Positions 15,225 to 32,699 of a DNA stretch of 64,000 nucleotides are shown piece after piece. Source of the stretch: Euzebya pacifica (GTDB lineage: Bacteria; Actinomycetota; Nitriliruptoria; Euzebyales; Euzebyaceae); the NCBI RefSeq assembly GCF_003344865.1, contig NZ_CP031165.1, forward strand, positions 2,857,910-2,921,909. Direction: 5' to 3'. A program made the position numbers and the translations under genes. Each line of letters begins with the position of its first letter. The stretch's first letter is position 1. The notes beneath the pieces are model-generated. The model made no database searches and had not been told where the DNA came from. It saw only the letters and a list, made by a program, of their open reading frames with translations.

Positions 15225-15524
15225 ATGAAGATGCTGAAGATGTGCATGCACCCCAAGGTGATCGCCGCGATGGTGGCCGTCGCCGCCGGTGTGTGGCTCG
15301 TCGCGCCCGGCTGGTTCGCTGCGGCGCTGCCGATCCTGTTCCTCGCGATCTGCCCGCTGTCGATGGTCGTCATGATGAAGATGATGATGCCGGGTGACGC
15401 TGCGAAGGAGGACACGGCCGACGACTCGTCGGAGGAGTCCCTCCGGGAGCGGTTGCGCCAGCTCGAATCCCAGCAGGCCGCGGTGTCCGAGCAGCTTCGG
15501 ACCCACCGCCAGCCGCAGGGCTGA
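15225..15524 (+). CDS. Small membrane protein, DUF2933-like
   Basis: 99 residues. Two adjacent hydrophobic segments (VIAAMVAVAAGVWLVAPGWF and ALPILFLAICPLSMVVMM) followed by a methionine-rich turn and a charged C-terminal helix predicted as coiled coil (SLRERLRQLESQQAAVSEQL). The CPLSMVVMMKM stretch is like DUF2933 proteins that travel with copper genes; Met/Cys could bind Cu(I). A TATAGT -10-like hexamer is at 15178-15183, just after the truncated ATPase. Four bases separate it from the thioredoxin gene. Confidence 0.7.
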   Translation: MKMLKMCMHPKVIAAMVAVAAGVWLVAPGWFAAALPILFLAICPLSMVVMMKMMMPGDAAKEDTADDSSEESLRERLRQLESQQAAVSEQLRTHRQPQG

Positions 15525-15528
15525 CCCG

Positions 15529-16164
15529 ATGTCGCTGGGGCTGCCCGACGCGAACGACCTGGGGACGACCGATCGTGGTCGTCGTCCGGTCGCGCGGTGG
15601 GCGGTCCTCGGACTGGTCGTCCTGGTCGTCGCGGGCGTCGGTGCCGCCGTCGTCGCCGGGCTGCGGTCCGACGGTGGCGTGGCGACGGTCTTCCAGCCAC
15701 AGCTGTCCACGCCACCCGGACTCGGTCCGGCGGTCGAGGAGGTGCCGGAGGACCTACTCCCGGGGCCGCTGCTCCCCTTGGGTCTTGGACCGGAGGTGGA
15801 CCTGAGTGCCTACGAGGGGCGGCCGCTGCTGGTCAACTTCTGGGCCACGTGGTGCGGACCCTGTGTGGAGGAGATGCCCGTCCTGCGAGATACGGAACGG
15901 CACCTTGGGGAAGAGGTGGCGTTCATCGGGATCAACGTGCAGGACAACGAGGAGGCCGCCCTGGAGTTCCTGTCCGAACTGGACGTCACCTACGACCAGG
16001 CTCGCGATCCGATGGCCGAGTACTTCACGGCGATCGGTGGCTTCGGCATGCCGACCACGCTGCTCGTCGACGCCGACGGTCAGATCACCTACCGCCACAC
16101 CGGCGCCGTCGAGGCCGCCCAGCTGGACGACCTGTTGGCGGCGCATCTGGGGGTCTCGCCATGA
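15529..16164 (+). CDS. Membrane-anchored TlpA/ResA-like thiol-disulphide protein
   Basis: 211 residues: cytoplasmic N-terminus, one membrane helix (residues about 22-46), then an extracytoplasmic thioredoxin fold. The redox motif is WATWCGPCVEEMP, and the cis-proline loop is GGFGMPTTLLV. Proteins of this kind reduce or isomerise disulphides outside the membrane, for example on apocytochromes or metal-damaged proteins. It is cotranscribed with the upstream DUF2933-like gene and overlaps the hydrolase start (ATGA). Its own partner membrane reductase (CcdA) is not in the window. Confidence 0.86.
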   Translation: MSLGLPDANDLGTTDRGRRPVARWAVLGLVVLVVAGVGAAVVAGLRSDGGVATVFQPQLSTPPGLGPAVEEVPEDLLPGPLLPLGLGPEVDLSAYEGRPLLVNFWATWCGPCVEEMPVLRDTERHLGEEVAFIGINVQDNEEAALEFLSELDVTYDQARDPMAEYFTAIGGFGMPTTLLVDADGQITYRHTGAVEAAQLDDLLAAHLGVSP

Positions 16165-17123
16165 GGCCGTCTCCGCCGGCGGCCGTGGCGTCGGTCGTTG
16201 CGCTGGCTGCGGGCTCCTGGCTGGTGCGCCACGTGACCTCGCCGGCGGTCCGCGGCTGGTCGCCACCGTCGGGTGAGCGCGGGCGGGCCGGCGGGCTGGC
16301 CGTACGGCGTCTGGGTGCCGGCGAGGATCGGCCGGTCATCGTGCTGTTGCACGGCTTGACCGCGTCGGGTGACTGGTGGGGCGGCGGCTACGACGTCCTC
16401 GCGGAGGACGCGGAGGTGGTGGTGCCGGACCTCCTCGGCTTCGGCGCATCGATGGACGTCGACCGCGGCGACTTCTCCCGGGAGGCACACCTGGATGCGC
16501 TGGACGCGATGGTGGACGAGCTGGGTCTGACCGGCCGCCCCCTGACGGTGGTCGGGCACTCCATGGGGACGCTGGTGGCACTGCACTGGGCTGCCCGTCG
16601 TCCGGAGACCGTCCGGGTGGTCGCGTTCAGCGCCCCGCTGTACGACAGCCGGGAGGAGGCTGAGCGGCACATCGCCCGCCTGGGCCCGCTCGAGCGGTTC
16701 TTCGGGCTGGACACCGGGTTGGCCGAGCGCACCTGCGCACTGATGTGTGAGTACCGCAGCACCGCGCAGTGGCTGTGGACCGCGGTGTCGCCGCAGTGGC
16801 CGGTGCGGTTGGCCCGACACGGGGTGCTGCACACCTGGCCGGCCTACCTGGGCGGCATGGAGGGGCTGATCATCCGTGGCGAGTGGGAGACCGCACTGGA
16901 GCAGCTCGACGAACGGGGGGTGCCGGTGCTGCTGGCCGAGGGGGCAGAGGATCCCATCCCGGTGGCCGGGCGGGCGCAGCGGCTGGCCAGCGCCCACCGG
17001 TGCGTGCGGACAGCCCGACACCCGTCCGCCGCACACGACCTGCCCGCTGCCTACCCCAACTGGTCGCGTGAGCAGGTGCGAGCGGCTGCGACGGGGACCG
17101 ATCCATCGATCGATCTCGGCTGA
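16161..17123 (+). CDS. Alpha/beta hydrolase
   Basis: 320 residues with a short hydrophobic N-terminus (VASVVALAAGSWLVRHV) that may act as a membrane anchor or signal. The fold is clear: oxyanion loop VLLHGLTASGDWW, nucleophile elbow TVVGHSMGTLVALHWA with the catalytic Ser, acid in LLAEGAEDPIP and catalytic His in SAAHDLP. Substrate unknown. Overlaps the TlpA-like gene by four bases, and its stop directly abuts the stop of the convergent CDF gene. Confidence 0.83.
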   Translation: MRPSPPAAVASVVALAAGSWLVRHVTSPAVRGWSPPSGERGRAGGLAVRRLGAGEDRPVIVLLHGLTASGDWWGGGYDVLAEDAEVVVPDLLGFGASMDVDRGDFSREAHLDALDAMVDELGLTGRPLTVVGHSMGTLVALHWAARRPETVRVVAFSAPLYDSREEAERHIARLGPLERFFGLDTGLAERTCALMCEYRSTAQWLWTAVSPQWPVRLARHGVLHTWPAYLGGMEGLIIRGEWETALEQLDERGVPVLLAEGAEDPIPVAGRAQRLASAHRCVRTARHPSAAHDLPAAYPNWSREQVRAAATGTDPSIDLG

Positions 17124-17762
17124 TCAACCGCACGCATCGTCACCGCAGTCGATCTTGCCCTCCCAGGCCTCGCGTCCCTCCATCACCGCGAAGCCGGCGA
17201 TGACGAAGCCGGCCAGGGCGTCCAGCCACGTCCAGCCGAACAGGCTGAAGGCCAGCAGACCGGCGAAGGTGGAGACCGACAGCCATGCGCACAGCCGTGT
17301 CTCGGCGGCGTCGGCGATGACCAGTCTGGAGCCGAGTGCCTCACCGGCGCGGCGCTTGGCGCGGGCCAGCCACGGCATGATGACCACCGAAGCGCCGGTC
17401 AGGGCGACACCGATTGGGCTGGCGTCTGGCGTCTCATCCCCGAGCAGGCGGATGACGCCCTCGACTGTGACGTAGGCCGCCAGGGCGAAGAACGTCGCGG
17501 CGATGAACTTGAGCGATCGCCGTTCAGCGGCTTCGTCCACCTCACCACCGCGCAGCTCGGAGAGCAGTCGGTGCAGCACCACGCCGGCGGCGGCCACCTC
17601 GATGCCAGAGTCCACCCCGAAGCCGATCAGTGACACCAGGCCCGCGGCCACGCCTGCGCCGACGGCGATGACGCCCTCGACCACGTTGTAGCCGATGGTC
17701 AGCTGCTCCAGCCGCACCGCGCGACGCGCAGGGCCACGTTGCCGGAGGTCGGTCGCCGTCAT
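17124..17762 (-). CDS. Short CDF-family cation efflux transporter
   Basis: 212 residues, all membrane domain: six helices, starting GYNVVEGVIAV and SLIGFGVDSGIEVAAAGVVL with the Asp of the helix-2 metal site, and ending in a cysteine-containing tail (IDCGDDACG). It lacks the cytoplasmic C-terminal domain of long CDF proteins, as many actinobacterial members do. Expected role: proton-coupled export of divalent metal. The ATG overlaps the stop of the CmtR-like repressor gene (ATGA), so they form a two-gene operon. A deleted paralogue lies at 6117-6335. Confidence 0.83.
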   Translation of the reverse strand: MTATDLRQRGPARRAVRLEQLTIGYNVVEGVIAVGAGVAAGLVSLIGFGVDSGIEVAAAGVVLHRLLSELRGGEVDEAAERRSLKFIAATFFALAAYVTVEGVIRLLGDETPDASPIGVALTGASVVIMPWLARAKRRAGEALGSRLVIADAAETRLCAWLSVSTFAGLLAFSLFGWTWLDALAGFVIAGFAVMEGREAWEGKIDCGDDACG

Positions 17763-18121
17763 CCCGTCACCGCGTCGCCGTAGGCGGGGCACAGGGCGAC
17801 GGCGTGACCGGTCGCGGCCAGTAGATCCTCCGCAGCGGCCAGCAGGCGCCGTAGCTCCACCTCCGGCGCCAGGGCGTACACCGTCGCCCGTCCCTCCGGC
17901 CGACCGACGATCAGGCCGCAGTCCCGCAGGCACGCGCAGTGCGCTGAGACGGTGGACTGGGCCAGCTCGAGCTGGCCGGTCAGGTCCACGACCCGCTGGG
18001 CGCGGCCGGCGAGCAGCTGGAGGATCGCCAGCCGCGTCGGGTCCCCGAGGCTCCGGAACAAGCTGGTCGCGCTCGAGAACAACGCCGGTTCAGTATCTAC
18101 ATCTACCGCTGTCATCGTCAT
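17759..18121 (-). CDS. ArsR/SmtB-family soft-metal sensor, second CmtR type
   Basis: 120-residue repressor with the winged-helix region QSTVSAHCACLRDCGL and a C-terminal VALCPAYGD. Cysteine spacing (CLRDC plus a C-terminal Cys) equals CmtR, with one extra Cys two residues before the pair. It controls, by position, the CDF exporter that overlaps its end. The start ATG 18121 is preceded by a TATCAT hexamer at exactly six bases with no Shine-Dalgarno, which suggests a leaderless mRNA. About 60% similar by eye to the repressor at 6477-6824. Confidence 0.87.
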   Translation of the reverse strand: MTMTAVDVDTEPALFSSATSLFRSLGDPTRLAILQLLAGRAQRVVDLTGQLELAQSTVSAHCACLRDCGLIVGRPEGRATVYALAPEVELRRLLAAAEDLLAATGHAVALCPAYGDAVTG

Positions 18122-18133
18122 ACAGCGATGATA
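18107..18133 (-). promoter_or_regulatory. Leaderless promoter and operator of the second CmtR-like repressor
   Basis: On the minus strand a TATCAT -10 hexamer (18133-18128) ends six bases before ATG 18121, the spacing expected of a leaderless actinobacterial transcript. An inverted repeat CGCTGT-N9-ACAGCG (18107-18112 with 18122-18127) straddles the start codon, so the repressor could block initiation by sitting on the start point. No ribosome-binding site is visible. Confidence 0.55.
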
Positions 18134-18179
18134 TCCGCCCGACCACGCCTGACATCGGGCAGCGCATCCAAGGGTGGTG

Positions 18180-21100
18180 TCAGATGCCACGACCGGGTCC
18201 TTCCAGGGTGCGTTGATGCCGTCTGCCCACGTCATCTGGGCGGTACTGCTCTGCGATGGCGGTCTGATGAGCGCGACGCATCGCAGCCATGGCGAAGGAG
18301 CGTCCCGGCGTCGGTTCGACGTACTGCCTTCGACCGAGTGGCGCATCGCCCGTGACGGCGTGACGGTCGCGATAGGCGGCGACGGTGGCCAGGTCACCGA
18401 ACCACTCCCGGCGTCGGTGTGCATCGACGGGGGGTCGGCCAAGGTGGCGCGTCCACCTGGCGCCATCGGCCAGAGCGGTCCGGCCGAGCTCCTCGGCGCG
18501 CTGCTGGATGAGCTGTTGACGAACGTCGAGTGCGGTTCGCATGTCGCCGGACATGGATCCTGTGACCACAGGGATCAGTCCGGCGATCAAGTCAGGTGGT
18601 CGGGCTCGGGTCTTTTTGGCCAACGTGCTCACGGCAGTCTGGGCCCGGTGGTGCAGGACCGCGGCGATGTCATCGACGTCCTCCAACGGTCGTGCGTGCA
18701 CGAGTCGTGGCAGGAGCGCGCTGACATCGAGGCGGTGGGCTTCGATGGTGCGCAGCGTGGCGCAGAGCGGTCCGAAGGCGTCAGAGGCGATGACTGCCTC
18801 CACCTGGTCCTCGCGTAGACCGCATGCACGGATGAGGGAGGTCCAGCGCGGTCGCTGTGCTGCGGCGGCGATGGTGTCGTACTCCGCGGCGAGCTGGGCG
18901 ATGCTGCCGTAGCGGTCCTGTTCGGCAGTGATCATCTGGTGAGCGGACGCCTCGGCACCGATGCGGGCGAGCACGCCGGCCAGTACCGCCCAGCCGGTCG
19001 GTGCGTCGGTGTGCTGGTGGGCTTCGATGTCGAGGGTGTCGGTGCAGGTGTAGGCGTCGTTTGACTGTCGTCCGCGGGTCATGGCGACGTACAGCGTCTC
19101 CCGGGTCATCCCCGGACCGACGATCGCGTGAGCGGTGTCCACCGTCGCGCCCTGCGCCCGGTGCACGGTCGTTGCGTAGCCCAGCTCGACGTGGGCGTCG
19201 ACGTAGCTGGCGGGCAGTCGTGTCGGGCTGCTGGACGGCAGGCGCTGGCGGCGGACGTCGACGGTGCCGTCGGGGTGCAGGGCGGTGATGCGCCAGCGGT
19301 CCCCGTTGCGGACCCACCCGCCGGCGCCGTGGAGGCGCCGGTCGTTGCGACGGGTCACCACCACGTCGCCGACCCCGGCGGTGGTGCCGTCGTGCAACGC
19401 CACCGTGTCCGCTGCGTCGACGTGGCCAGAGGCGATCAGGTCGGCCTGGGCGCGGATGTTGAGGGCGAGGACCTGATCGCGGGTGGGGGCGATGAGCAGG
19501 CTGTGCTTCCCGGCGGCCTGGTCGGTCTGCCAGGCGGTGTAGGCGGTGTTGAGCATCTGTTCGGTGTCGCCGTCGTGCAGCCGGTCGTGCTGGCTGTAGG
19601 TGTCGAGGACGGTGGGGTTGCCGTCGCGTAGTTGCAGGGTTGCGGCGGCTTCCCAGGGCTGGGTGAAGCGGCGGACGTCGGTGAGGTGTGCGACGTCGTC
19701 GCGGTCGCGGGCGAGGAGTTGCAGGGCGCCGCCGGCATCGACGGATGCGAGCTGTGCGGGGTCGCCGACGACGAGGACCTTGGCGCCGACGGTGGCGGCG
19801 TGGTCGGCGATGGTGTGCAGGCTGCGGGTGCCGGCCAGGGACGCTTCGTCGATGATGACCAGCTGCCCGGCCGTCAGGGTCGCGTTGCCGGCGTGGTGGT
19901 CGTGCAGCCACTTGGCGAGCGTGTCCGCCGGGACGCCCAGGTCCTGACCGAGGACCTCGGCGGCGGCCGCGGATGGGGCAAGGCCGATCACCGAGTTGGC
20001 GCCGTAGAGGCTGGTCCAGGCCTGGCGGAGGGTGCGCATGGCGGTGGTCTTGCCGGCGCCGGCAGGGCCGATCAGCACATCCACAACCCGCCCCGACGTC
20101 GCCACTGCGGTCACCGCGGCGGCCTGATCGTTCCCGAGCCCACCCGCCGTCACGGCCTGGTCGCTTGTGTGGGGAGGAAGGGTCGGTGCGGTGGTGGTGC
20201 GGCCGAGGTCGAGCAGCCGGTCCTCGGCGGCGAGAAGCTCGGCTGAGGTGAACACCTCACTGTGACGGGGTCGCAGAACGCTGGTCCCATCCGCACGACG
20301 CAGCTCCGCTGGCACGGTGGCGAGCTCGGGTGGCGCCAGACGAACCGACTGGTCCTGGGCGGCATCCACGATTCGGTGCAGGACGGTGGTGCGGTCGGTG
20401 TTGGTGGCGAAGCGGACCCCGGCGAGCTGGCGGGATGTCTCGGCGTGCAGGTTCCATCGGCGCCACGTCGACCGTCGCTCACCCACCACGTCCACGACCT
20501 GAGCTGCAACGCCTGCAACGGTTGCCTCCGACAGCGCGTCGGCGGTGAGCAGCTGCTGTCTGCGCTGGCCGTCGTGTAGCAGACCGGCTGCCCAGTCCTC
20601 AGCGGGCCGGGCGAGGACGGCAGAGGCCCGTTCCCGCCAGCTGGTCATCAGCGCTGCGAGTGGCGTCACCGTCTTGTCGGGCCGGGTGGCCAGGGTGGCC
20701 TGCTGCCGCAGCTTCAGCACCGTCCGGGCTGTCGGCTGGTGGCCGTGTTCGGCGACGTAGGCGGCGACCAGGTCGTCCTTGACCGCCCCGATCGCCGCAG
20801 CCCGCGACGAGAACAGCTCGAGCAGCTCCTCGGGGACGCCGGTGAGATCCCAACAGGCGTTGCGATCAGCGCCACGGTCGCGTTGGTGCCAGGTGAGCCC
20901 GAGAGTGCGGGTGAGGTGGTCGGCCAGCACCGCTCGGTAGTGCTCCGACAGCGCCACCATCGCCGCATGCACCGGCCGGCCATCCAGGGATCGCCACTTG
21001 CCATCGAGGGCGGTCTGGACCTTGTTGGCGATCACGACATGGGTGTGCAGCTGTGGATCCCCCGCACGGGAGTCGACGTGATCGAAGGCGACTGCGCTCA

Positions 21101-21719
21101 CGCCGGTGACGTCGACCTGGGCAACCGCCCCATCCCCGGCATCCGCGCCCATCCGGGTAGCGGCCACCTCCGCCTCGAACAGCCGCAGGACATCGTCGAT
21201 GGCCGCATGGTGGGCAGCGACGATCTTGGCCTGCACCTCAGCGGGGGCGAGGGCCCACAGGACCGACACCGACTTGGGGACCGAGAAGGTCAAGTCGAAC
21301 CCGGCAACTGCGCGACGGGTCGGTCGCGAGGCCTCTGCCGACTCGATCGCGGCCATGGCCGCGGCCCGCTGCTCACGATCCAGCCCCCCATCGAGCCGGG
21401 CGACCCGAGCCGCCACCCGCTCCGCCCGCGACAGGTACTGCGGGTAGGCACGACCCAGCGGGTCGCCGGTGATCGGGTCGCGCCCTTCGCCCAGCAGCAA
21501 CGCCAGCTGGGCCTCCTCCACCACATCACCTGCCCGGATGCGGCCGTCCCCGAGGCCGGCCAGGCCGCTGCCGAGCCATCGCCCGGGTGGGGTGCCGTCC
21601 GCGGTGTAGTAGGCCGTCAACGGCAACCCGGACTGACGTTGCCCATCGCCGATAGCGACCGACGACGTCAGGTACCGGTAGCCATGCCCAGCCGACATCA
21701 CCCGCATCGACACCGTCAC
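18180..21719 (-). CDS. TrwC/TraI-type conjugative relaxase-helicase (MOB_F)
   Basis: 1179 residues. N-terminal relaxase: catalytic tyrosines in GHGYRYLTSS, the AYYTADGTPPGRWLGSG motif, FDLTFSVPKSVSVLWAL and the three-His metal site in DPQLHTHVVIAN. The C-terminal half is a RecD-like helicase with Walker A LIGPAGAGKTTAMR, DEASLAGT, and GYATTVHRAQGATVD. It would nick oriT and unwind the strand for transfer. Start: GTG 21719 gives MTVSMRVMSAGHGYRYL, like family N-termini; ATG 21707 is the alternative. No coupling protein, type IV secretion gene or oriT was found nearby, so it is an orphan. Confidence 0.9.
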   Translation of the reverse strand: MTVSMRVMSAGHGYRYLTSSVAIGDGQRQSGLPLTAYYTADGTPPGRWLGSGLAGLGDGRIRAGDVVEEAQLALLLGEGRDPITGDPLGRAYPQYLSRAERVAARVARLDGGLDREQRAAAMAAIESAEASRPTRRAVAGFDLTFSVPKSVSVLWALAPAEVQAKIVAAHHAAIDDVLRLFEAEVAATRMGADAGDGAVAQVDVTGVSAVAFDHVDSRAGDPQLHTHVVIANKVQTALDGKWRSLDGRPVHAAMVALSEHYRAVLADHLTRTLGLTWHQRDRGADRNACWDLTGVPEELLELFSSRAAAIGAVKDDLVAAYVAEHGHQPTARTVLKLRQQATLATRPDKTVTPLAALMTSWRERASAVLARPAEDWAAGLLHDGQRRQQLLTADALSEATVAGVAAQVVDVVGERRSTWRRWNLHAETSRQLAGVRFATNTDRTTVLHRIVDAAQDQSVRLAPPELATVPAELRRADGTSVLRPRHSEVFTSAELLAAEDRLLDLGRTTTAPTLPPHTSDQAVTAGGLGNDQAAAVTAVATSGRVVDVLIGPAGAGKTTAMRTLRQAWTSLYGANSVIGLAPSAAAAEVLGQDLGVPADTLAKWLHDHHAGNATLTAGQLVIIDEASLAGTRSLHTIADHAATVGAKVLVVGDPAQLASVDAGGALQLLARDRDDVAHLTDVRRFTQPWEAAATLQLRDGNPTVLDTYSQHDRLHDGDTEQMLNTAYTAWQTDQAAGKHSLLIAPTRDQVLALNIRAQADLIASGHVDAADTVALHDGTTAGVGDVVVTRRNDRRLHGAGGWVRNGDRWRITALHPDGTVDVRRQRLPSSSPTRLPASYVDAHVELGYATTVHRAQGATVDTAHAIVGPGMTRETLYVAMTRGRQSNDAYTCTDTLDIEAHQHTDAPTGWAVLAGVLARIGAEASAHQMITAEQDRYGSIAQLAAEYDTIAAAAQRPRWTSLIRACGLREDQVEAVIASDAFGPLCATLRTIEAHRLDVSALLPRLVHARPLEDVDDIAAVLHHRAQTAVSTLAKKTRARPPDLIAGLIPVVTGSMSGDMRTALDVRQQLIQQRAEELGRTALADGARWTRHLGRPPVDAHRRREWFGDLATVAAYRDRHAVTGDAPLGRRQYVEPTPGRSFAMAAMRRAHQTAIAEQYRPDDVGRRHQRTLEGPGRGI

Positions 21720-21818
21720 CCACACCACCCCCGACACGCCGACCGACCAGGACGCGCGGCCCACAGCCCACCTCGAACTGCAAGACGCGTGTCTGGTGTG
21801 ACGGGGCCGAGGGGCTGT

Positions 21819-21899
21819 CTGTGTCAAGGATCCTGGAAGACGTTCGGGCGCTGCGATGGCTCGCGGTTTCGACGTGGCTGGCGGAGATTCCTGACACAG
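21819..21899. repeat. Imperfect inverted repeat pair, possible insertion-sequence ends
   Basis: CTGTGTCAAGGATCC at 21819-21833 faces GGAGATTCCTGACACAG at 21883-21899, whose complement is CTGTGTCAGGAATCTCC: eight identical bases then partial match. The 49 bases between code for nothing recognisable. The layout looks like the two ends of an insertion sequence (transposase lost) or a small non-autonomous element, located just upstream of the relaxase start. No target duplication was seen. Confidence 0.4.
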
Positions 21900-21928
21900 C
21901 ACGGGCGGTGCCTGCGTCGTAGTTCGCG

Positions 21929-22216
21929 ATGGCGACACGGCTGCCGACGAAGGCTCAGGAGGAGGGGCGCGCAAGGAGCTCGCGGTCGTCAACGTCGTCC
22001 GTCGGTACGGACGATCGCAATCCGGTCCTGCGCACGACGACGTCCTCGCCAGTTCCTGGTCGGAGCGCGACTGACGGGCGCGGCGCCACGGACGTCGCGG
22101 ACTACGTGCGCCAGGTCGTCGACCGGGCCCCACCGCTCTCGGCGGCCCAACGAGAGCTGCTCGCCGACATCCTGCAGCGCCATGACGATGCAGGCACAGC
22201 GAGCGCTCCCGCCTGA
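21929..22216 (+). CDS. Hypothetical small protein
   Basis: 95 residues. The C-terminal part (DVADYVRQVVDRAPPLSAAQRELLADIL) looks like short actinobacterial proteins found beside HTH and integrase genes of mobile elements. The N-terminal half is low-complexity Arg/Ser/Thr and may not be translated. No other ATG is available downstream in frame. Located between the relaxase and the toxin-antitoxin remnants. Function unknown. Confidence 0.4.
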   Translation: MATRLPTKAQEEGRARSSRSSTSSVGTDDRNPVLRTTTSSPVPGRSATDGRGATDVADYVRQVVDRAPPLSAAQRELLADILQRHDDAGTASAPA

Positions 22217-22230
22217 CGCGTGATGTCAGT

Positions 22231-22659
22231 GCGGGGACGTACGGTCCGGTCGATGACGTCCGGGAGCTGGCGCCGCGCGGCCACTACCTCGCTGCCGAGG
22301 TCGGCCGGCAGCCATCTGCGACGAGGTGGGCTGCGCGGCAACGTGACCTCAGCCACATCGAAGTCAACCCCGACCGGCTCTCCGGCAGCCCCGTGATCGC
22401 GGGTACGCGGAGTCCGGCTGACGACGTCGCCCGGCTCGCAGCTACGGACGACGGCGAGGCGATCCTCCGGGCTGACTACGGTCAGACCGACGAGCAGATC
22501 GCTGATGCGAGGACGTGGTGGGCCGCAGTCACGGGGTACGCCCCTGCTTGCGGCCTGACCAGCCAGGGGCATCGGGCGACTGTTGGTGATCGACGCGAGC
22601 CTGGCCTCGCGCATCGCGACCGTGCTGGCTCCACCGACCCGCTGTGGGGATCTCTCTGA
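22231..22659 (+). pseudogene. Internally deleted DUF433 (VapB-like) antitoxin
   Basis: One frame reads TYGPVDDVRELAPRGHYLAAEVGR, like the N-terminus of MerR-DUF433 antitoxins, then jumps to IEVNPDRLSGSPVIAGTR and ILRADYGQTDEQIADARTWW, the C-terminal DUF433 domain. The middle part (rest of the HTH) is missing, and no ATG/GTG/TTG precedes the first half; the only in-frame start is GTG 22393. The gene is dead or reduced to its DUF433 end. Confidence 0.6.
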
Positions 22660-22660
22660 C
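22580..22660 (+). pseudogene. Possible 5' stub of a PIN-like (DUF5615) toxin
   Basis: From TTG 22580 the frame begins LLVIDASLASRIATVLA, like the first strand and helix of DUF5615 PIN-like toxins that pair with DUF433 antitoxins. After about 17 residues the similarity ends. It overlaps the end of the antitoxin remnant in another frame, as intact pairs do. Short evidence, hence low confidence. Confidence 0.35.
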
Positions 22661-22846
22661 ACACGATGGAGGATCCGTGCATCGTCACCATGGTCGCCGT
22701 CGCTGCCGCTCTGGCCTTCGTGGGCCGCGTCGCGCTCGCTTCGTGGGCCGCTCCGATGTGACCGGTGTGATTCGTCGGCGTCATGGGTGAACTGCGCGTG
22801 AGATGTCGTTGCCTTGAGGAATCCTCGCTCGAACCCTGACCGAGCG

Positions 22847-22902
22847 TTGCCCCTTGGGGTATCCGCGACTTTGGGTCGTGCCGCAACCTGCCGATATATA
22901 GT
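22847..22902 (+). promoter_or_regulatory. Promoter region with a possible CsoR-like G/C-tract site
   Basis: TTGCCCCTTGGGGTAT (22847-22862) has the G/C-tract inverted-repeat look of CsoR/RcnR operators. A TATATA/TATAGT -10 (22895-22902) ends 4-6 bases before ATG 22907, so the transcript may be leaderless. Family assignment of the site is a guess from appearance. Confidence 0.3.
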
Positions 22903-22906
22903 CCGC

Positions 22907-23281
22907 ATGGTGCGTGTGCTCGTGCTCCTCTGCGTGAGCGTCATCGTGGTGACGCAGGGCCTTGGCGTGCTCGTGGCACATCCCCACTTCGACGCCATCG
23001 GGGACGGTGGACAACACATTCATTCCTACGTCCCTGATGCCGATGGCCACACCGGGCATCCGGAGGACGCCGCGCCGGCCGAAAGCGAGCACCGGAGGGG
23101 GCAGCCCACCGCGCGCCTGTCCGGCTTGGTGCTGCTCTGGGCTCTGGCGTTCGTCGCAGTTGTGCGCGGCAACCGGTCCGCCGATCAGTCAACCGGCCCG
23201 GTGATGCACGGCACCCGCGCAGGCCGTCCCCAGAAGCGTCATCCCGCGCGGCTCGCGCTTCTCGCCATCCTCCGGATCTAG
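22907..23281 (+). CDS. Small exported or membrane protein with a His/Asp segment
   Basis: 124 residues. An N-terminal signal-like helix (VRVLVLLCVSVIVVTQGLGVLV) is followed by a loop rich in His and Asp (HPHFDAIGDGGQHIHSY, DGHTGHPED) and a second helix (LSGLVLLWALAFVAVV), ending in a basic tail. The His loop suggests metal binding outside the membrane, as in CzcI/DUF2946-like proteins, but the family was not recognised. Probably leaderless. It lies in the metal island between the relaxase remnants and the cysteine-domain protein. Confidence 0.55.
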   Translation: MVRVLVLLCVSVIVVTQGLGVLVAHPHFDAIGDGGQHIHSYVPDADGHTGHPEDAAPAESEHRRGQPTARLSGLVLLWALAFVAVVRGNRSADQSTGPVMHGTRAGRPQKRHPARLALLAILRI

Positions 23282-23470
23282 AGGACCGCGGGTCGCCCGG
23301 CCCGTGCTGCTGCGTCCGCACCCGGCGCGCCAGCCCGCCCGGGCCTTCGTCACGCGACCACTCGTGGTTCGCGCGCACCGTTGACCCGCCTCGCTGCATT
23401 CGGGTGCGACCCGCGACCACCGGCTCCTGCCGGATGGTCCCGCCGAGTCGCGACCAAGGAACGCATCGCC

Positions 23471-23764
23471 ATGACCACCCCCAACCAGATCCGGCGACCG
23501 ATGCCGGCCAGCCTCGTGCTGCTCGGCCTGCTCGCCGCGCCCGACGCGGCCCACTCAGCGCTGCAATCCGCAGACCCCGCCCCCGACAGCGGTACAGACC
23601 AGCCCGTGGACACGCTGTCACTGTTCGCCTGGCCTATCGAGGGCCTTCGTGACTCCGTCCAGGCCACCAGCCCCGTCGGCCAGACCCAACTCGAACCAGT
23701 CGGGCCTCCGACAGCGTCGCCCCCACTCAACCGACCGCTGTGGCGAGCGGAGGCATCGTCGTGA
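23471..23764 (+). CDS. Hypothetical small protein upstream of the tandem-domain protein
   Basis: 97 residues: one hydrophobic segment (PASLVLLGLLAAPDAAHSAL) that may be a signal peptide, then a Pro/Ser/Asp-rich tail. Start ATG 23471 has an AAGGA site. Its stop overlaps the GTG of the next gene (GTGA at 23761), so the pair is translationally coupled. No family recognised. Confidence 0.5.
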   Translation: MTTPNQIRRPMPASLVLLGLLAAPDAAHSALQSADPAPDSGTDQPVDTLSLFAWPIEGLRDSVQATSPVGQTQLEPVGPPTASPPLNRPLWRAEASS

Positions 23765-24747
23765 TCCCCTCCCGTCAGGTGCCGCTTCGGCCGGGCGATC
23801 TCGTTGCGGTCAGGTCCGCCGAGGACATCATGGCGACCCTTGATGCTGACGGACGGCTTGAAGGACTGCCGTTCATGCCGGAGATGCTCACCTACTGCGG
23901 TCAGACCATGCGCGTGCACAAGACGGCGAAGGTGACCTGCGACGGCCGGGCTGACCTTCGAGAGATGGATGACGCCGTATTCCTCTCCGGCGTCCGCTGT
24001 GACGGATCTGCTCACGGCGGATGCCAGGCACGATGTCTCATCCACTGGAAGGCCGCGTGGCTGGAACGTCTTGACCCCGACAGTGTCCGGGCACTACCAG
24101 GCAGCGGTGAGCAGCTGGCGCCGTCGCAGCGGGAGCGACTCCTGCCGCTGGTGGCCCCGACCAGACGCAACACCGATGGCGAGAGCCCGGCCCATCTGTG
24201 CCAGGCCACCGAGATCCTTGACGCGACGCGCCCGTTGCCATTCACCCGACTGGCGCAGTACCCGCATCACGTGCGCAACTGGGGGCTGCGCCGGTTGGTG
24301 AAGGTCATGCTCGTCGCGCTGCTCAACAAGTACCAGGTCCTCAGCCGCCGACTCCCACGACGGCTCCGGGTTAAGGGGGGCGCGACCTTCCCGGCGGTGC
24401 AGGGCTCCCTTCGAAAGACACCGCCTGCCCCGTTCGAGCTGCGACCCGGCGACCGCGTGCGGATCAAGAGCCGAGAGGAGATCGAGGCGACCCTGGACGC
24501 GAACAACGCCAACCGCGGCCTCATCTTCGATGTCGAGGAACTCCGCTTCTGTGGACAGGAGGCCACCGTGCTCCAACGCGTCGATCGCATCATCGACGAG
24601 CGCACCGGCAGGATGATCGACTTCAAGTCTGACGCCTACGTGCTGGACGGAATCGTCTGCCCCGGCGACTACCACCGCCTCTGCGCCAGAGGCATCTACT
24701 CCTACTGGCGAGCCGTGTGGCTGGAGAAGCTCCCGCCGGCGCCGTAG
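23761..24747 (+). CDS. Protein with a tandemly duplicated cysteine domain, unknown function
   Basis: 328 residues. Two copies of a ~95-residue domain: the first from LRPGDLVAVRSAEDIMATLD through YCGQTMRV to CLIHWKAAWLERL, the second from LRPGDRVRIKSREEIEATLD through FCGQEATV to YSYWRAVWLEKL. Each has a CGQ cysteine and further Cys/His toward its end (CDGSAHGGCQARC in copy 1, CPGDYHRLC in copy 2), a possible zinc or Fe-S site. A helical linker joins them. GTG 23761 is chosen because GGAGG (23749-23753) lies 7 bases before it, against GTG 23740. No known enzyme motif. Confidence 0.7.
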   Translation: MIPSRQVPLRPGDLVAVRSAEDIMATLDADGRLEGLPFMPEMLTYCGQTMRVHKTAKVTCDGRADLREMDDAVFLSGVRCDGSAHGGCQARCLIHWKAAWLERLDPDSVRALPGSGEQLAPSQRERLLPLVAPTRRNTDGESPAHLCQATEILDATRPLPFTRLAQYPHHVRNWGLRRLVKVMLVALLNKYQVLSRRLPRRLRVKGGATFPAVQGSLRKTPPAPFELRPGDRVRIKSREEIEATLDANNANRGLIFDVEELRFCGQEATVLQRVDRIIDERTGRMIDFKSDAYVLDGIVCPGDYHRLCARGIYSYWRAVWLEKLPPAP

Positions 24748-24750
24748 GGG

Positions 24751-24791
24751 GGGTCAAACGGGTGTCCGGCGACCGGGCACCCGCTTGACCC
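24751..24791. terminator. Strong hairpin between convergent genes
   Basis: GGGTCAA (24751-24757) pairs with TTGACCC (24785-24791), and inside it GGGTG pairs with CACCC, giving a long GC-rich stem. It sits directly after the stop of the tandem-domain protein and before the end of the convergent DUF305 gene. No U-tract, as usual in high-GC actinobacteria; probably bidirectional. Confidence 0.7.
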
Positions 24792-24827
24792 GGAGGTGTC
24801 GTTGCCAGGAATATCGCGCACCACGTA

Positions 24828-25427
24828 CTACTCGGCTGGGCACTGTCGGTCGGCGGGGCGGTCGAAGTCCGGCACGGGTCGTGTGTTGGCCTCCTCGCGA
24901 GTTGTCGCGGCGCCGTTCTCGGCAATGTCCTCGATCAGCCAGTCCATCTCCAGGATCTCACGGCGCTGGGCCTCGCTGATTGCCACGGCCAGATCGCACA
25001 CTCGAACGTCGTCATTGTTGAACCGCTCGGAGCGGGTGATGGCCAAGGAGTGGTGAGGGATCATCGCCTTCATGAACGCGCCGTCATCGACAGTGGCCTG
25101 GCTGCGGTCGAGGGTCACGCCGACGGCGAAGACAAGAAGACTGACCACGACGATGGCGATGTTGACTTTGGTACTGCGGTACATGTTGAGCATCCAGGCG
25201 AGCATGACCAAGCCCATTGTGCCGCCCATGGTGATTGCCATGAACACGCGGCTCTGGCTGAAGCGGACGTGGCTCAGCTCCCACGAGCCGACGAACATGA
25301 CCCAGTACATGACCACGATCGCGGTCAGGATCATGGCGCCGAAGCGCAGGTACATGCCCTTCTGCATGCCCGAGCCGCCGTGATCACCGTCGGTTGCGTG
25401 GTGCTGGTCGGCCTGGTCGGATGTCAT
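24828..25427 (-). CDS. Membrane DUF305-domain protein
   Basis: 199 residues. His-rich cytoplasmic start (HHATDGDHGG), then about four hydrophobic helices (LRFGAMILTAIVVMYWVMFV, RVFMAITMGGTMGLVMLAWM, VNIAIVVVSLLVFAVGV), and an extracytoplasmic DUF305 helix region with FMKAMIPHHSLAITRSERF and a second EAQRREILEMDWLI helix. DUF305 proteins are four-helix, ferritin-like in shape, and usually associated with copper or other metal resistance. Start ATG 25427 has AGGAG. First of a minus-strand group of copper genes read from the cupredoxin side. Confidence 0.82.
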   Translation of the reverse strand: MTSDQADQHHATDGDHGGSGMQKGMYLRFGAMILTAIVVMYWVMFVGSWELSHVRFSQSRVFMAITMGGTMGLVMLAWMLNMYRSTKVNIAIVVVSLLVFAVGVTLDRSQATVDDGAFMKAMIPHHSLAITRSERFNNDDVRVCDLAVAISEAQRREILEMDWLIEDIAENGAATTREEANTRPVPDFDRPADRQCPAE

Positions 25428-25622
25428 CAGTTCAGCTCCTGTGCAGTCGGGTTCGGGAACGGTGCAAGTCAATCGCGGGCGAGCGACACCAGATGTCCGT
25501 GCCGCGGGCCATACCCGGACGAGTTGTCGGAATAACCCCTTCTGCCGATGCCGTGGTCCGACGCGTCTCGCCGGTGAGCACGGGTACGGTCGTCTTCCTG
25601 CACGACCGGCACCCTGCTCGCC

Positions 25623-26066
25623 TCAGGTCGGCTGGACGGTGATCACCATCCCGGAGGCGTAGTGGCCAGGTTGGTGGCAGCCGATGAGGGTGCCGTCCGG
25701 GCCGCCGGTCACGAACAGTTCGGCCGCCTCGCCGGGCTGGACGGTCACGCCGTCGGCGTCGGAGTCGTCTGTCCCGTGGTCCATGTCGGCCATCTCGGCC
25801 ATTTCCTCCTCGTGGGCGTCCTGGGCGGCCTCGTCCCCGACGAACGCGTCGTGGGCGATGGTCCCCTCGTTGGTGAACTGCACGCGGACGGTCTCGCCGT
25901 CGGCCACGGTGATGTTGGTCGGTTCGAAGGCGATGTCGCGCATCGTCACCTCGATGGTTCGGGTTGCTGCGGTGTCGGCGTCGCTGGGGGGCGAGGAGTT
26001 GCATGCGGTGGCGAGGAGGCCGAGGACGGCGAGGGCCATCCAGAGGACGCGGTGGGTGGTGGGCAT
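25623..26066 (-). CDS. Cupredoxin-like lipoprotein
   Basis: 147 residues. Signal peptide with lipobox ending in LLATAC, then a cupredoxin fold: first His in GTIAHDAFVGD, and Cys, His and Met in IGCHQPGHYASGM, the four type 1 copper ligands. An inserted acidic Met/His stretch (EEEMAEMADMDHGTDD) could bind extra Cu. It would hold copper on the outer face of the membrane. ATG 26066 is preferred over ATG 26075 because GGAG is correctly spaced only for the former. Confidence 0.84.
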   Translation of the reverse strand: MPTTHRVLWMALAVLGLLATACNSSPPSDADTAATRTIEVTMRDIAFEPTNITVADGETVRVQFTNEGTIAHDAFVGDEAAQDAHEEEMAEMADMDHGTDDSDADGVTVQPGEAAELFVTGGPDGTLIGCHQPGHYASGMVITVQPT

Positions 26067-26203
26067 GGTGATCATTCTCCGTCGAAGGTGCGAAGTCGGA
26101 GCGAGTCGACCGCGACGAACGGGCTCGAGAACCCATCGCTGCTCCGTGATGAGCGGGTCGAGGTACCCGAGCCCGCGAAGGGGGTCGTCAGTGCGGGGGC
26201 CAG

Positions 26204-26743
26204 TCAGGGCGAAGGCTCGAGCCCGGCCACCAGGTTGAATGATCCGGTGAGCACGTTCAGCGCGACCAGGGCGACGATGTCGAGGATGTCGCGGTCGGAC
26301 AGCCCCAGCGCGCGGAGCCGGGCGACGTCGTCGTCTGTGGTCGAGCCCGGGTCGACGTGGACCTGCCAGCCGAAGGCGACGATCTCGGCGAGCCGGGGGT
26401 CTGCGGAGGTTCCCTGCTTCGCCATCGCGATCTCGGCCTCGTTGATTCCAAGGCGGCGCGCGGCGTCGGTATGGGCGGCGAGGCACAGCGCGCAACCGAG
26501 GTTGGACTGCACCGCCAGCGAGATCCGCTCGGTGAGCGTTCGAGTCAGGCGGCTGCGGCCCATCGCACGGGAGAGCTCGAGGTAGCCGATCAGGGTCGAG
26601 GGGGATCCCGCCATGGTGGACACCATCGGCCCGACGGGGCCGCTGCGGGACTCCAGCTGGGCGAGGCGCTCCGCCACGCCTCCGCTGGTGCTGGCGGAGG
26701 TGTGGCGGGGGAAGCGGTCGGAGGTGGTGGTGACGGTGGACAT
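26204..26743 (-). CDS. AhpD/carboxymuconolactone decarboxylase-like peroxidase
   Basis: 179 residues, all helical. The AhpD-type active site is GCALCLAAHTDAARRLG: two cysteines in CxxC and the downstream His, preceded by the helix with ERISLAVQSN. Such proteins reduce peroxides through their CxxC pair or act as decarboxylases; with an intact CxxC, peroxidase is more likely. Good AAGGAG before ATG 26743. In the copper gene group it could counter copper-driven oxidative stress. Confidence 0.83.
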   Translation of the reverse strand: MSTVTTTSDRFPRHTSASTSGGVAERLAQLESRSGPVGPMVSTMAGSPSTLIGYLELSRAMGRSRLTRTLTERISLAVQSNLGCALCLAAHTDAARRLGINEAEIAMAKQGTSADPRLAEIVAFGWQVHVDPGSTTDDDVARLRALGLSDRDILDIVALVALNVLTGSFNLVAGLEPSP

Positions 26744-26804
26744 GTGGATGCTCCTTCAGGCGGGGGGCCGGGGGACGGCGTCATCGGGATGTGGGTCCGA
26801 GGGG

Positions 26805-27152
26805 TCAAGGGCTCCAGCCCAGCACGGCTGCCCCGAGGGTCAGGGACGCGTACCAGACGAGCAGCGCCTGGAGGACCACGAGTGGGACCAGACGGGGGTG
26901 GCGATGGCTGATCCGGGCGGCCAGCAGCGCGTGGGCGACCCACAGCGCCTGGACCACCAGGACGGCCCAGCCGGGGGCGATCAACCCGGATGCGGAGAAG
27001 GGGAAGAACCAGGTAACGATCAGGGCGGTCCAGCCGATGCCGGCGAGCGCCCGGTCGAGGAGGACGGCACCCCGTGACCGCGGCGCGTGGCCACCGAACC
27101 AGAGCGGTGGCCACGGGCGTGGGGTGGGGGCGACGGGCGGGGCGTGGGTCAC
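26805..27152 (-). CDS. Small membrane protein after the copper ATPase
   Basis: 115 residues with a Pro-rich cytoplasmic start and three helices ([60 protein letters not shown]). GTG 27152 overlaps the ATPase stop (GTGA), so it is translationally coupled to it. No cysteine, and no recognised family; by position it may assist the copper ATPase or be a general membrane protein. Confidence 0.6.
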
Positions 27153-29278
27153 CGCCGCCCTCCTGGGGCCAGGTCGAGGCGGCGCAGCAGCTGGGCGTTG
27201 GCGGCCACGACGATGGTGGACAAGCTCATCAGCGTCGCCCCGACCGCCATCGGCAGGACGAACCCGGCGAAGGCGAGGACGCCAGCGGCGAGCGGGATGG
27301 CGAGCAGGTTGTACCCGGCGGCCCACCACAGGTTCTGGATCATCTTGCGGTAGCTGGCCGCGGACAGGCGGCGCACGCCGAGAACGCCGCGGGGGTCGTC
27401 GGATGCCAGTACGACGCCGGCGGACTCGATGGCGACGTCGGTGCCGGCGCCGATGGCGATGCCGACGTCGGCGCGTGCCAGGGCAGGTGCGTCGTTGACG
27501 CCGTCGCCGACCATGGCCACCACGTGGCCGCGGGCTTGAAGCGCCGCGACTGCGGCGTCCTTGTCGGCTGGCAGCACCTCGGCGAAGACCTCGGTGAGGC
27601 CCAGCTCGTCGGCGACCGCCTCTGCCACCTGGCGGGCATCGCCGGTGATCATGCCGACGGTGATCCCCAGGCGCCGCAGCTCGGCGACCGCCTCCCGGCT
27701 CTCCGGTCGGATCTCGTCCTCCAGGGCGAGGCTGCCGAGGATGACGCCGTCGCGGATGACGTGCAGCACGGCGGAGCCTCGTCGCTCCCATCGGCTGATC
27801 TGACCGACGAGCGCCTCGGAGATTGCGACGTCCATCTCCCGGAGCAGCGCCGGACCGCCGACGGCGACGGTGGTCCCGTCGACCTCGGCACGGACACCGC
27901 GGCCGGCGAGCGGCCTGAAGCCGGTTGCCGTAGGTGCACGAAGGCCTCTTGTGGCCGCCGCAGCGACGATGGCGCGGGCGAGGGGGTGCTCGCTGTCGGC
28001 TTCGACCGCGGCGGCCAGGGCCAGGATCTCCTCGTCGTCACCGCTGACGGATGCGACGTCCACAACGGTGTGCGCGCCTCGGGTCAGCGTGCCGGTCTTG
28101 TCGAACAGCACCGCGTCGACGGTGCGCATCTGCTCCAGCGCCAGCCGGTCCTTGACCAGGATGCCGCTGCGGGCGGACTTGGCGGTCGAGATCGACGTCA
28201 CCAGCGGAATGGCCAGGCCCAGCGCGTGCGGGCAGGCGATGATGAGGACCGTGACGGCCCGTGTGAGCGCGTTGGCTGGCTGGCCGAGCAGGGTCCAGAC
28301 CAGCATGGTGAGGGCACCGCTGGCCAACGCGACGTAGAAGAGCAGCGCGGCGGCCCGGTCGGCAAGGACCTGGGTCCTGGAGCGGGATAGCTCCGCCTCC
28401 GCGACCAGGCGTTGAATGCCGGCGAGGGCCGTGTCGGCGCCGACCGCGTCGACCCGCAGACGAAGCGCGCCATCCGTGGCGACGCTGCCGGCCACGACGC
28501 GGTCGCCCTCGGCACGCGCGACGGGGTTGGACTCACCGGTCAGCATTGACTCGTCGACATCGGCGGTGCCGGAGACGATGGTGCCGTCCACTGGGATCCG
28601 ACCGCCGGGGCGGACCAGGACGACGTCAGCCATCCGCAGATCGGCGACCGCGACGCGGATGGTGCTGCCGTCCGCCGACACGCGTTCGGCGTCGTCGGGG
28701 AGGAGCTCGGCAAGGGCGGCGAGCGCGCCGCGGGCCTGGCCGATGGCGCGCATCTCCAGCCAGTGGCCAAGGAGCATGATGACGATGAGGAGGGACAGCT
28801 CCCACCAGACCTCGACAGAGAACCATCCGAGGCTGGCGGCCATGCTCGAGCCGAACGCGACGGTGATCGCCATCGAGATCAGCAGCATCATCCCCGGCGT
28901 GCGCTCGCGTGCCTCGGCGATCCCGCCGGTCAGGAACGGCCAGCCGCCGTAGAGGAACACCAGCGTGCCGAGCACGGGGGAGATCAGCGCGTCACCGGTG
29001 AAGTGCGGGAAGGAGTAACCGAACCACATCTGGAGGTTGTGGCTCATCGCGACGACCGGGATCGCCAGCAGCAGTGAGAACCAGAAGCGGTCGCGGAACA
29101 GGGCGGCGTGGTCACCGTGCCCGGCGTGTCCGGCGTGTCCGGCGTGCGCGTCGTGATCAGGGGTGTGGGTGACGGTCAGGTCGGCGGGGGCGGCCCCGTG
29201 GTGGGCAGGGCCGTGGTGGGCAGGATCGTGGTGGGCAGGGCCGTGGTGGACAGGATCTGGTGTTGTGGTGGTGCGCAT
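27149..29278 (-). CDS. copB: CopB-type P1B ATPase with His-rich N-terminus
   Basis: 709 residues. The metal-site motif is CPH ([13 protein letters not shown]), which defines the CopB/P1B-3 class linked to Cu(I)/Cu(II) export. Other motifs: [37 protein letters not shown]. The first ~70 residues are His-rich ([32 protein letters not shown]) and probably bind Cu before delivery. Full-length, unlike the CopA pseudogene in the same island. Start ATG 29278; upstream, the divergent Cys-less HMA gene is 116 bp away and the gap would hold both promoters. Confidence 0.92.
29205..29255. repeat. Short direct repeats encoding His pairs in CopB
   Basis: A 15-base unit near GTGGTGGGCAGGGCC (minus-strand product: [10 protein letters not shown]) is repeated about four times with single changes, giving the HHxPA repeats of CopB. 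Such repeats expand and contract by slippage, so the number of His pairs probably varies among strains. Confidence 0.7.
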
Positions 29279-29394
29279 GACGGCAGCATGCGGTGCCTCG
29301 CCGTCCATCGACTGTCCAGCCGCTGTCCACGCCGCCGGGCTGCGGTGCCGGAGCCGACAGGCCCCGGACATTCCCACGCGGCAACGTCGGTGTC

Positions 29395-29595
29395 ATGGAC
29401 GAGCTCGAGCTGATCGTCGTGGGTGTCGACGACCGCGAATCCCTCCGGCGGGTCAGTGCATGCATCCGCGACGTCGAGGGCGTCGTCACGCTGCTGGTCG
29501 ACGTCCGCACGGGCCGGGTCCGCATGGGTGGCACCGCCTCCCGCGACGCGGTCTGCCGGGCGATCGTCGAGGCAGGCTTCCGCATCGAGCCGTGA
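29395..29595 (+). CDS. HMA-like domain protein lacking the CxxC metal site
   Basis: 66 residues shaped like a CopZ-type chaperone: ELIVVGV strand, helix SLRRVSACIRDVEGV, VVTLLVDVRTGRVRMGG hairpin, helix DAVCRAIVEAGFRIEP. The loop that should read GMxCxxC is VGVDDRES, with no cysteines; two remaining Cys lie in the helices. It therefore cannot bind Cu(I) in the usual way. Transcribed divergently from copB and convergent with the SARP regulator. It may be a decoy, a structural partner or a degenerate chaperone. Confidence 0.65.
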   Translation: MDELELIVVGVDDRESLRRVSACIRDVEGVVTLLVDVRTGRVRMGGTASRDAVCRAIVEAGFRIEP

Positions 29596-29597
29596 CC

Positions 29598-32500
29598 TCA
29601 GGCGCAGTCCGCGCACTCCTCGACGTCGCGCTGCTGCACGGCCGGGGCCGGCAGCCGGTGCAGGCGGCGCAGCGACGAGGCCCGAGCCAGCATGGCGCTG
29701 CAGCGCACACCCTCGCCGTCGCGCGCCGCAACCCGCGCGAGCTGCTCGCAGGACGCAGCCGTGACGCCCACGTCGGCGTGCCGCTCCCCGGCGTCGAGCG
29801 CCGCCAGCAAGACCGCGGTCACCTCGCCCGGGTCCACGGCGTCGTCGTCCAGCAGCGCTGCGCCGAGCCCAACCCTCGCTGCGGCCGCGGTGATCTCGAC
29901 GCCCCCGGCGTCCAGGTGCGCGATCGCCTCGAGGTAGCGGGCCTTCGCGGCTGGACGGTCGCCTCGCAGCCGGGCTGCCGTGCCGCGGCCGAGTGCGATC
30001 AGCCCTTCGGAGGTCGCATCCGGGACCTGCACGGCGACCTGCTCGGCCTCTGACAGCTTGCGCTCCGCCGTGACGGGGTCCCCACGGTGCAATGCTGACT
30101 CGCCGAGCTCCACGAGCGCCCGCAGGAGGTTGTTCGGCAGGCCGCACTCGGTGGCGACCGACACGACCTCCGACAGGAACCGCTCGGCCTCGTCGGTCCG
30201 GCCCGCAAGACGCATCGCCATGCCCAGGTGCAGCCGCACCGCCGAGCGTCCCCAGGCGTCGCCCAGCCGATCGAAGGCCGCGGCGGCGCGCTCTCCCAGC
30301 CCGATCGCCGCATCCGGGTCTCCCGCGTGCATCCGCAGCTCCATCTCGACGAAGTCGGCCAACGCCGATCCCCAGGCGTCGCCCACGGCGGCCAGCCGAG
30401 CTCGCGCAGCCGCGGCCTCGGCCACGGACGGCAGCGGGTCGGCGGCGGCGACGCCTTCGACGGCTGCGAGCAACGCCGAGACGGCCGCGGGACCCTCTAG
30501 GCCGAGGTCCTCGAGGAGCGCGCGGCTCTCTCGCGCGGCCGCCGCGGCGTTCGCGTGGGGGTGCACGATGCAGCCGGCGGGGCGCAGCACCAAGGACAGC
30601 GACTGCAGCGCCCGCGCGCGTGCCTCCGACGGGCGCGGCGGCGCGGCGGCGAGCATGGTGGCCAGCCGCCCTCGTCCGTCGGCTTGTCGGCCGACGTACC
30701 AGTACCAGCCGAGCGAGGCGGTCAGCCGCAGCCCGAGGTCGGCCTCGTGCTCGGTGTGCGCCTCGGCCCAGTCCAGAGCTGCCCGCAGGTTCGCCTCCTC
30801 CGCGCCCACCAGCAGCAGCCAGCGCCGCTGGTCGGGGCCGCGGAGTCCTTGTTCGGCGTCCTCGGCGAACCGGGTGAAGAAGTCCGCGAGGCGTCGGCCG
30901 GTGCGCTCGGCGTCGTCGGGGTCGGCGCGGAGCTGCTCGGCGGCGTACAGCCGGACGGTCTGCAGCAGGCCGAACCGGCCGTCGTCGGTGAGGGTGACCA
31001 TCGACTGCGCGACGAGCCGGTCGAGCAGGTCGAGGACGACGACCCCGCGTTCGGCACACACGTCTTCGGCCGCCTCCACCGTCCAGCCACCGGCGAAGAC
31101 GGACAGCCGGCGCACCAGGCGTTTCGCCTCCTCCGACAGCAGGTCGTAGCTCCAGTCGATGACCGCCCGGAGCGTCTGGTGACGTGCCTCCGCGGTCCGG
31201 GGTCCCGCGGTGAGGACGCCGAAGCTGTCGTCCAGACGTGCCAGCAGCTTCTCGGGGACCAGGACGCCGACGCGCGCCGCGGCGAGCTCGATGGCCAGGG
31301 GCATGCCGTCAAGACGCTCGCAGATCTGCGCCACCACGGGGTCGTCCTCGGAGATGCCAAGCCCGGGTCGCACCGCGTGGGCGCGGGCGACGAACAGCCT
31401 GGAGCCGTCGGCCGGGGGCAGTGGCGGCAGCGGCACCTGCACCTCCCCGTGCACGCCGAGCGCCTCACGGCTGGTGGCGAGGACGCGGACGCCGTCGCCG
31501 GCGCCAAGCAGGTCCTCGACCACGTGCGCACACGCGTCGATGAGATGCTCGCAGTTGTCCAGCAGCAGCAGGACCCGGCGCTCGTGCACCCAACGGCGGA
31601 CATGGGTAGACGGATCGGCGTCGGGCCCGACGTCGAGGCCGATAGCCCGCGCGATCGCGGCCGGGATCGCCGCGCCGTCGTCCAGCTCAGCGAGGCGCAC
31701 CAGCCAGCAGCCGTCACGGTGGGCGCTGGTCAGTTCGCGCGCGAGCGCCAGCGCGACGGTGGTCTTGCCCGCACCTCCCGGACCGGTGACCGTGACGACG
31801 CGGTGTACCGCGAGCGCCTCGCGCATCTGAACCAACTCGGCCTGGCGTCCGATCAGCGGGTGCAGGGCGGCTCCGATGTTGCCGCTGGTCGCCTGCGCGG
31901 CTGCCGGCGGCGCGAGCGCGGGGTCGTCGGCCAGGATCTGGCCCTGCAGCTGCCGGAGCGCGGCCGACGGCGGGAGACCGAAGCCCTCGTCGAGCACGCG
32001 GTAGCCGTCCTGGTAGATCTCCAGCGCCTCGGCGGTGCGGCCGCTGCGGTGCAGCGCCAGCATCAGCTGGCCGCGGAGCCGCTCCCGCAATGGATGCGCG
32101 GCAAGCAACGCCCGAGCCTCGCCGATGACCTGCTGGTGGCCACCTGCGGCCAGGCGCTGCTCCAGCAGCTCCTCCAGCGCGTGCGCGTGCAACTCCAGCA
32201 GCCTGGTGCTCTCGGTCCGGGCCCAGTCCAGCTCGATCATCTCCAGGAACGGGTCGCCACGCCACAGCGCCAGCGCCTCGGTGAACCGCCTGGCCGCCAG
32301 GAGCCGCTCGAACGCCACGAGGTCGACCTCGACCCCGTCGGCGAGGCGGTAGCCGGGCGGCTCGTGGATCACGGCCCCCGGAAGCGCCCGGCGCAGCTTG
32401 GCGACGCGCACCTGCAGCGCGTTGACCGGGTCGGCAGGCAGGCTCGCCCCCCACAACCCGTCGATCAAGCGGTCGGCGCTGACCGCACGTCCTCCGGCCG

Positions 32501-32603: not shown

Positions 32604-32699
32604 CACGCCCTCCTCGCATGGACGGTCTCCACGGCCAGCCCTGGAGAGGAAAGACTAATCGCTGATCTCCGCCCTGCCCCGGTGCTTCGGAGCATTCCC

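Follow-up and report, generated by a model that had tools for sequence, protein, structure and literature searches.

A gene at positions 23761-24747 on the forward strand of the window, the 64,000-nucleotide stretch of Euzebya pacifica DNA analysed here, encodes a 328-aa protein from an unnamed, widespread and uncharacterised family. The protein, here called X, contains two cysteine-bearing repeats that are predicted to be SH3-like, and most of the family belongs by gene context to Wzx/Wzy polysaccharide loci. The function of X is tied in this way to a process, surface-polysaccharide assembly, and not to a mechanism. With regard to the mechanism, we tentatively propose that X may be a cytoplasmic, metal-structured adaptor for Wzx/Wzy polysaccharide assembly.

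The open frame of gene X has 328 codons, starts with a GTG that is preceded at a distance of 7 nt by a Shine-Dalgarno-like GGAGG (23749-23753, forward strand), and ends with a stop codon at 24745-24747, so the coordinates given in the earlier note were right. Two copies in another genome of the same genus (G022) allowed a comparison of substitution rates, and this showed dN/dS ratios of 0.085 against the 98%-identical relative and 0.118 against the 92%-identical relative. The neighbouring genes that were compared in the same island had ratios of 0.17-0.51, every one above that of gene X. Gene X is under strong purifying selection, and its two ratios identify it as a real, constrained gene.

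The two halves of the protein aligned with each other at 38.6% over 114 aa (E 1.6e-15), and profiles of the two halves, built from 62 relatives, matched with a probability of 99.8% and an E value of 1.9e-28 over 102 of about 108 columns. The duplication is thus not due to chance, and the description in the earlier note of two copies of a Cys-containing domain was borne out. Repeat 1 (about residues 6-106; 23776-24078, forward strand) carries C46, C60, C80, H85, C88, C92, W96 and W100, and repeat 2 (about residues 224-326; 24430-24738, forward strand) carries C264, C300, C308, W316 and W320. The motifs that the note had listed were all present in both halves, namely LRPGD-x-V (LRPGDLV and LRPGDRV), EEI-ATLD (AEDIMATLD and REEIEATLD), CGQ (at C46 and C264) and (Y/H)W+A-WLE+L (HWKAAWLERL and YWRAVWLEKL). 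The further cysteines that it mentioned are C80 and C88 in the first half and C300 and C308 in the second. C46/C264, C80/C300 and C88/C308 are equivalent between the repeats, and C60 and C92 are extra cysteines of repeat 1. The repeats are joined by a linker (about residues 113-212; 24097-24396, forward strand) with an invariant C147-Q148-x-T150 and a helix at residues 176-195, which might be amphipathic.

The internal duplication with conserved cysteines was confirmed, and seven cysteines (C60, C80, C88, C92, C147, C300 and C308) were invariant in 67/67 aligned family members. Equally invariant were LPFMP (36-40), R79-C80-D81-G82, G87-C88, W100, C147-Q148-x-T150, N173, N251-R252-G253, E280, R310, W316-R317 and W320-L321. 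E151, the last residue of the linker motif C147-Q-A-T-E, was nearly invariant, and C46 was less strictly kept across the family than C147, Q148 and T150. Repeat 2 usually has an extra cysteine at position 292 and often one at 277; the window protein has Ala at 292 and Ile at 277, and the Mesorhizobium and Bosea proteins likewise lack these cysteines.

The structure prediction proposed in the earlier note gave an AlphaFold2 model (62 sequences, mean pLDDT 90.3, pTM 0.86) in which two SH3-like barrels are joined by the helical linker. The REP domain of Mind bomb 1 was the top structural match for repeat 2 (Z 7.6, 2.3 Å over 70 residues) and, when the N-terminal part of the protein was modelled alone, for repeat 1 (Z 6.4, 2.4 Å over 71 residues); both matches are weak, since the Z values fall below 8, a range that may mean merely a common arrangement. 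Weak sequence matches to the corresponding Pfam family, SH3_15, were found in 14/67 members (best E 1.2e-5), but members with a match scored only about 13 bits when scanned singly, below the cut-off of 24, and the window protein did not match SH3_15. Each score alone is modest, and together they point to SH3-like barrels in both repeats. The structure comparison bore on the barrels and barely covered the fold of the linker. Foldseek searches against the PDB gave no significant hits, the best being the nitrile hydratase beta subunit (E 0.015), and the search of a viral library was led by matches of low TM-score. No enzyme fold was recognised for the protein by sequence or structure searches.

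Among known structures, the REP domain of Mind bomb 1 (Pfam SH3_15; PDB 4XI6, 4XI7 and 4TSE) resembles the predicted fold of X in its tandem SH3-like barrels. In contrast to Mind bomb 1, X is bacterial, lacks ubiquitin-ligase domains, and has the invariant cysteines and the C-Q-A-T-E linker. An SH3-like barrel would also be shared with the nitrile hydratase beta and thiocyanate hydrolase subunits, but the TM-scores were low and the match was not significant. The genes that recur near X included none recognised as a nitrile hydratase gene.

A five-member profile, used in a single scan of 84,980 GTDB species genomes, detected at least 315 related loci, and the best 80 of these were used further. 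These 80 came mostly from Actinomycetota (Streptosporangiaceae, Pseudonocardiaceae, Micromonosporaceae, Nocardioides and Rhodococcus) with one Gemmatimonadetes assembly, and plasmid records added relatives in Mesorhizobium and Bosea. An even sample of the phylum contained X in 3/396 genomes, and the family is therefore widespread but sporadic. No relatives were found in phage records or viral contigs. The tree placed the window protein and the two other copies from the genus in one clade, whose long branch (0.99) lies among actinobacterial sequences. Protein X matched no family over the cut-off in Pfam, NCBIfam, PHROGs or PADLOC, sequence searches of the PDB gave only chance-level hits, and no characterised family covering the full domain was found in any of these. 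Our literature search found no papers describing an X-like protein. The remark in the earlier note that the domain had no nameable function thus still holds at the level of the family, but gene context now names the process.

The neighbourhood search suggested there was carried out on 85 loci, in which genes were called by codon usage, clustered, and identified by Pfam, and polysaccharide genes adjoined X in most of them. Many of the 85 loci are close relatives, and the neighbour counts that follow are therefore not independent. The commonest upstream order was a C-methyltransferase (Methyltransf_13/14) at position -5 (53 loci), a nucleotidyltransferase at -4 (51), a PIG-L deacetylase at -3 (52), an epimerase at -2 (55) and DUF4910 directly before X at -1 (54), which places X inside a fixed sugar-modifying cassette in about 55/85 loci. 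Downstream, a Wzx-type flippase (Pfam Polysacc_synt_3, E 1.9e-54) occupied position +1 in 60/85 loci, in 59 of which it was the immediate neighbour on the same strand, and a family 2 glycosyltransferase followed at +2 in 47. Then came O-antigen ligase/Wzy genes and Wzz-like genes, the latter labelled from sequence appearance with no Pfam hit. A Wzx gene was found within six genes of X in 67/85 loci, and some core polysaccharide gene within the same distance in 74/85. Subfamilies that lack the cassette also showed the adjacency, with GNAT and glycosyltransferase genes beside X as one example; in Mesorhizobium, the genes for X and the flippase share 4 bp, and in Bosea the two are divergent. The neighbourhood is evidence on the process and not on the molecular role of X.

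Several loci departed from the common order. In two Crossiella loci (L065 and L080), X is an orphan whose neighbours are housekeeping and transporter genes (YdcZ, folD-like), and no polysaccharide gene lies close to it. At L102:9821-13604 (G225), X lies beside a class-III aminotransferase gene followed by a C-methyltransferase gene, a variant of the cassette in a genome without DUF4910. Locus L040 has two X paralogs (29-1222 and 2076-3230), and the 273-aa gene between them has a glycosyltransferase-like start.

DUF4910 was considered as an obligate partner of X, and this was rejected because 17 of 18 genomes chosen for having no DUF4910 near X had none anywhere. In the phylum sample, just 2/15 genomes with a DUF4910 match over the cut-off had X. 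The genome that contains the window carries most of the DUF4910 cassette 1.95 Mb from X, where genes for PIG-L, C-methyltransferase, DUF4910, class-III aminotransferase, nucleotidyltransferase and rfbC lie together (C1:925-931 kb), just preceded by Wzx, Wzz-like and glycosyltransferase genes, the whole spanning about 900-931 kb of C1. Elsewhere in the genus X occurs only in G022, which carries this cassette too; DUF4910 is absent from the two members of the genus that lack X. This co-occurrence within the genus, based on four genomes, is suggestive only.

The window copy of X is an orphan in a copper-resistance/relaxase island. A relaxase gene (18180-21707) flanks it on one side, and DUF305, cupredoxin, CMD-family and P-type ATPase genes flank it on the other (the relaxase and the ATPase were named from their sequence); X and the adjacent copper genes are encoded on opposite strands. 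No polysaccharide gene adjoins this copy or either G022 copy. The island as a whole (window 15030-33885) is of the copper-resistance type, with P-type ATPases, cupredoxins, DUF305, a BTAD/STAND regulator and the relaxase, and G022 has it twice (L088 and L089), 98% and about 90% identical to the window.

A small ORF on the forward strand directly upstream of X (23471-23764, or from an alternative start at 23381) shares the letters GTGA with the start of X. The second G022 copy, where X is 92% identical, has an intact class I SAM methyltransferase gene (L089_12) with the same GTGA overlap, and about 1.06 kb with this gene are missing from the window and from the first G022 copy. The junction lies near 23692-23726, where the last codons of the methyltransferase gene are fused to DNA that originates about 250 bp upstream of it, and the tail of the ORF (RPLWRAEASS) aligns with the methyltransferase tail (RPMGRTGASS). 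The ORF is best explained, as judged from these alignments, as the fusion product of a deletion, and we infer that the derived state is this deletion, shared by the window and the first G022 copy, and not an insertion in the second. Comparison of the ORF with the other loci found no match. It had been thought to be a small, possibly exported protein coupled to X, but with a methyltransferase tail at its end and no match elsewhere it was rejected as a conserved exported partner. The G022 methyltransferase (L089:10809-11666) has a 60% identical paralog at G022:C14:50228-51037, with no X beside it.

How X might act was considered in the light of these results. As an adaptor, X would assist the Wzx/Wzy-type assembly of cell-surface polysaccharides from within the cytoplasm, and no signal peptide was apparent by eye. 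Its two SH3-like barrels, of the Mind bomb-repeat type, would be binding modules. Invariance of C60, C80, C88 and C92 in all 67 members makes metal or Fe-S binding plausible; in the adaptor these cysteines of repeat 1 would hold a structural metal, most likely zinc, as would C264, C300 and C308, possibly with C147, in the second half. The helical linker may lie against the membrane or a partner, and X would connect the Wzx flippase with sugar-modifying enzymes or glycosyltransferases, or would regulate the flippase. In the genus of the window, the gene would have left the polysaccharide locus for the copper-resistance island and would act in trans on C1:900-931 kb. The adaptor is supported by the same-strand downstream Wzx gene (59/85 loci) and the nearby core polysaccharide genes (74/85), by the repetition of this adjacency in Alphaproteobacteria (Mesorhizobium and Bosea), and by the polysaccharide cassette in the window's own genome and in G022. 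The predicted fold, with only SH3-like barrels and no enzyme fold, and the seven cysteines invariant in the alignment also support it, and the fold agrees with the suggestion of a scaffold in the earlier note. Against it stand the copies in the window, G022 (both) and Crossiella (two) that lie away from polysaccharide genes, the low structural Z values, and the fact that DUF4910 is not obligatory.

The main rival, which we regard as rather unlikely, is that X is an enzyme of the modified-sugar pathway, with C147-Q-A-T-E, together with E280, R317 or other residues, as a thiol active site for a nucleotide sugar, lipid-linked sugar or acyl group, and with the barrels framing the site. The strict conservation of C147, Q148 and T150 and near-invariance of E151, compared with the laxer C46, would fit such a site, as would the position of X inside the sugar-modifying cassette, but the searches recognised no enzyme fold and X also occurs in polysaccharide loci without the cassette. 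It is improbable that X senses thiol redox state or metals and adjusts polysaccharide assembly in response, with the cysteines as switches and not fixed ligands; many of them lie outside known zinc motifs, and positions 46, 277 and 292 vary while others are fixed, but family library searches found no DNA-binding or signalling domain. A role of X in copper or heavy-metal handling in this genus, like its neighbours DUF305, cupredoxin and P-type ATPase, is a lesser and quite improbable rival, suggested solely by the local island. This copper-type island surrounds X in each of the three genus copies, and the Bosea plasmid has a heavy-metal ATPase gene at about 8 kb from X; however, the family-wide neighbours are polysaccharide genes, the strand of X is opposite to that of the adjacent copper genes, and its invariant cysteines are the same as in members from polysaccharide loci. 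The alternative raised in the earlier note, an iron-sulphur protein, has the four invariant cysteines of repeat 1 in its favour and is very improbable, as no known Fe-S family was matched and no redox partner genes recurred near X.

Taken across the family, it is possible, if doubtful, that X represents a family not described before, either of tandem SH3 adaptors with bound metal or of thiol enzymes, which is a dedicated partner of some Wzx flippases in Actinomycetota and Rhizobiales and which in one lineage moved to a metal-resistance island and still serves the polysaccharide locus in trans. The usual description of polysaccharide flippases has them work without soluble helpers. A conserved unnamed protein beside flippases in more than 50 genomes, actinobacterial and rhizobial, would be a candidate for such a helper or for a modifying enzyme, and the surface sugars concerned govern symbiosis and cell-surface properties. 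The X loci resemble the DUF4910 operons (CA_C2195, PDB 3K9T) in their epimerase, nucleotidyltransferase, methyltransferase, glycosyltransferase and export protein, but X is present in many genomes without DUF4910. From such operons, DUF4910 was proposed to help make a modified surface sugar, in passages on DUF4910 that mention no X-like protein (Das et al. 2014, PMC4000134). With X, the DUF4910 sugar operons of the 2014 proposal (PMC4000134) would gain a second unknown partner, and both can be tested together.
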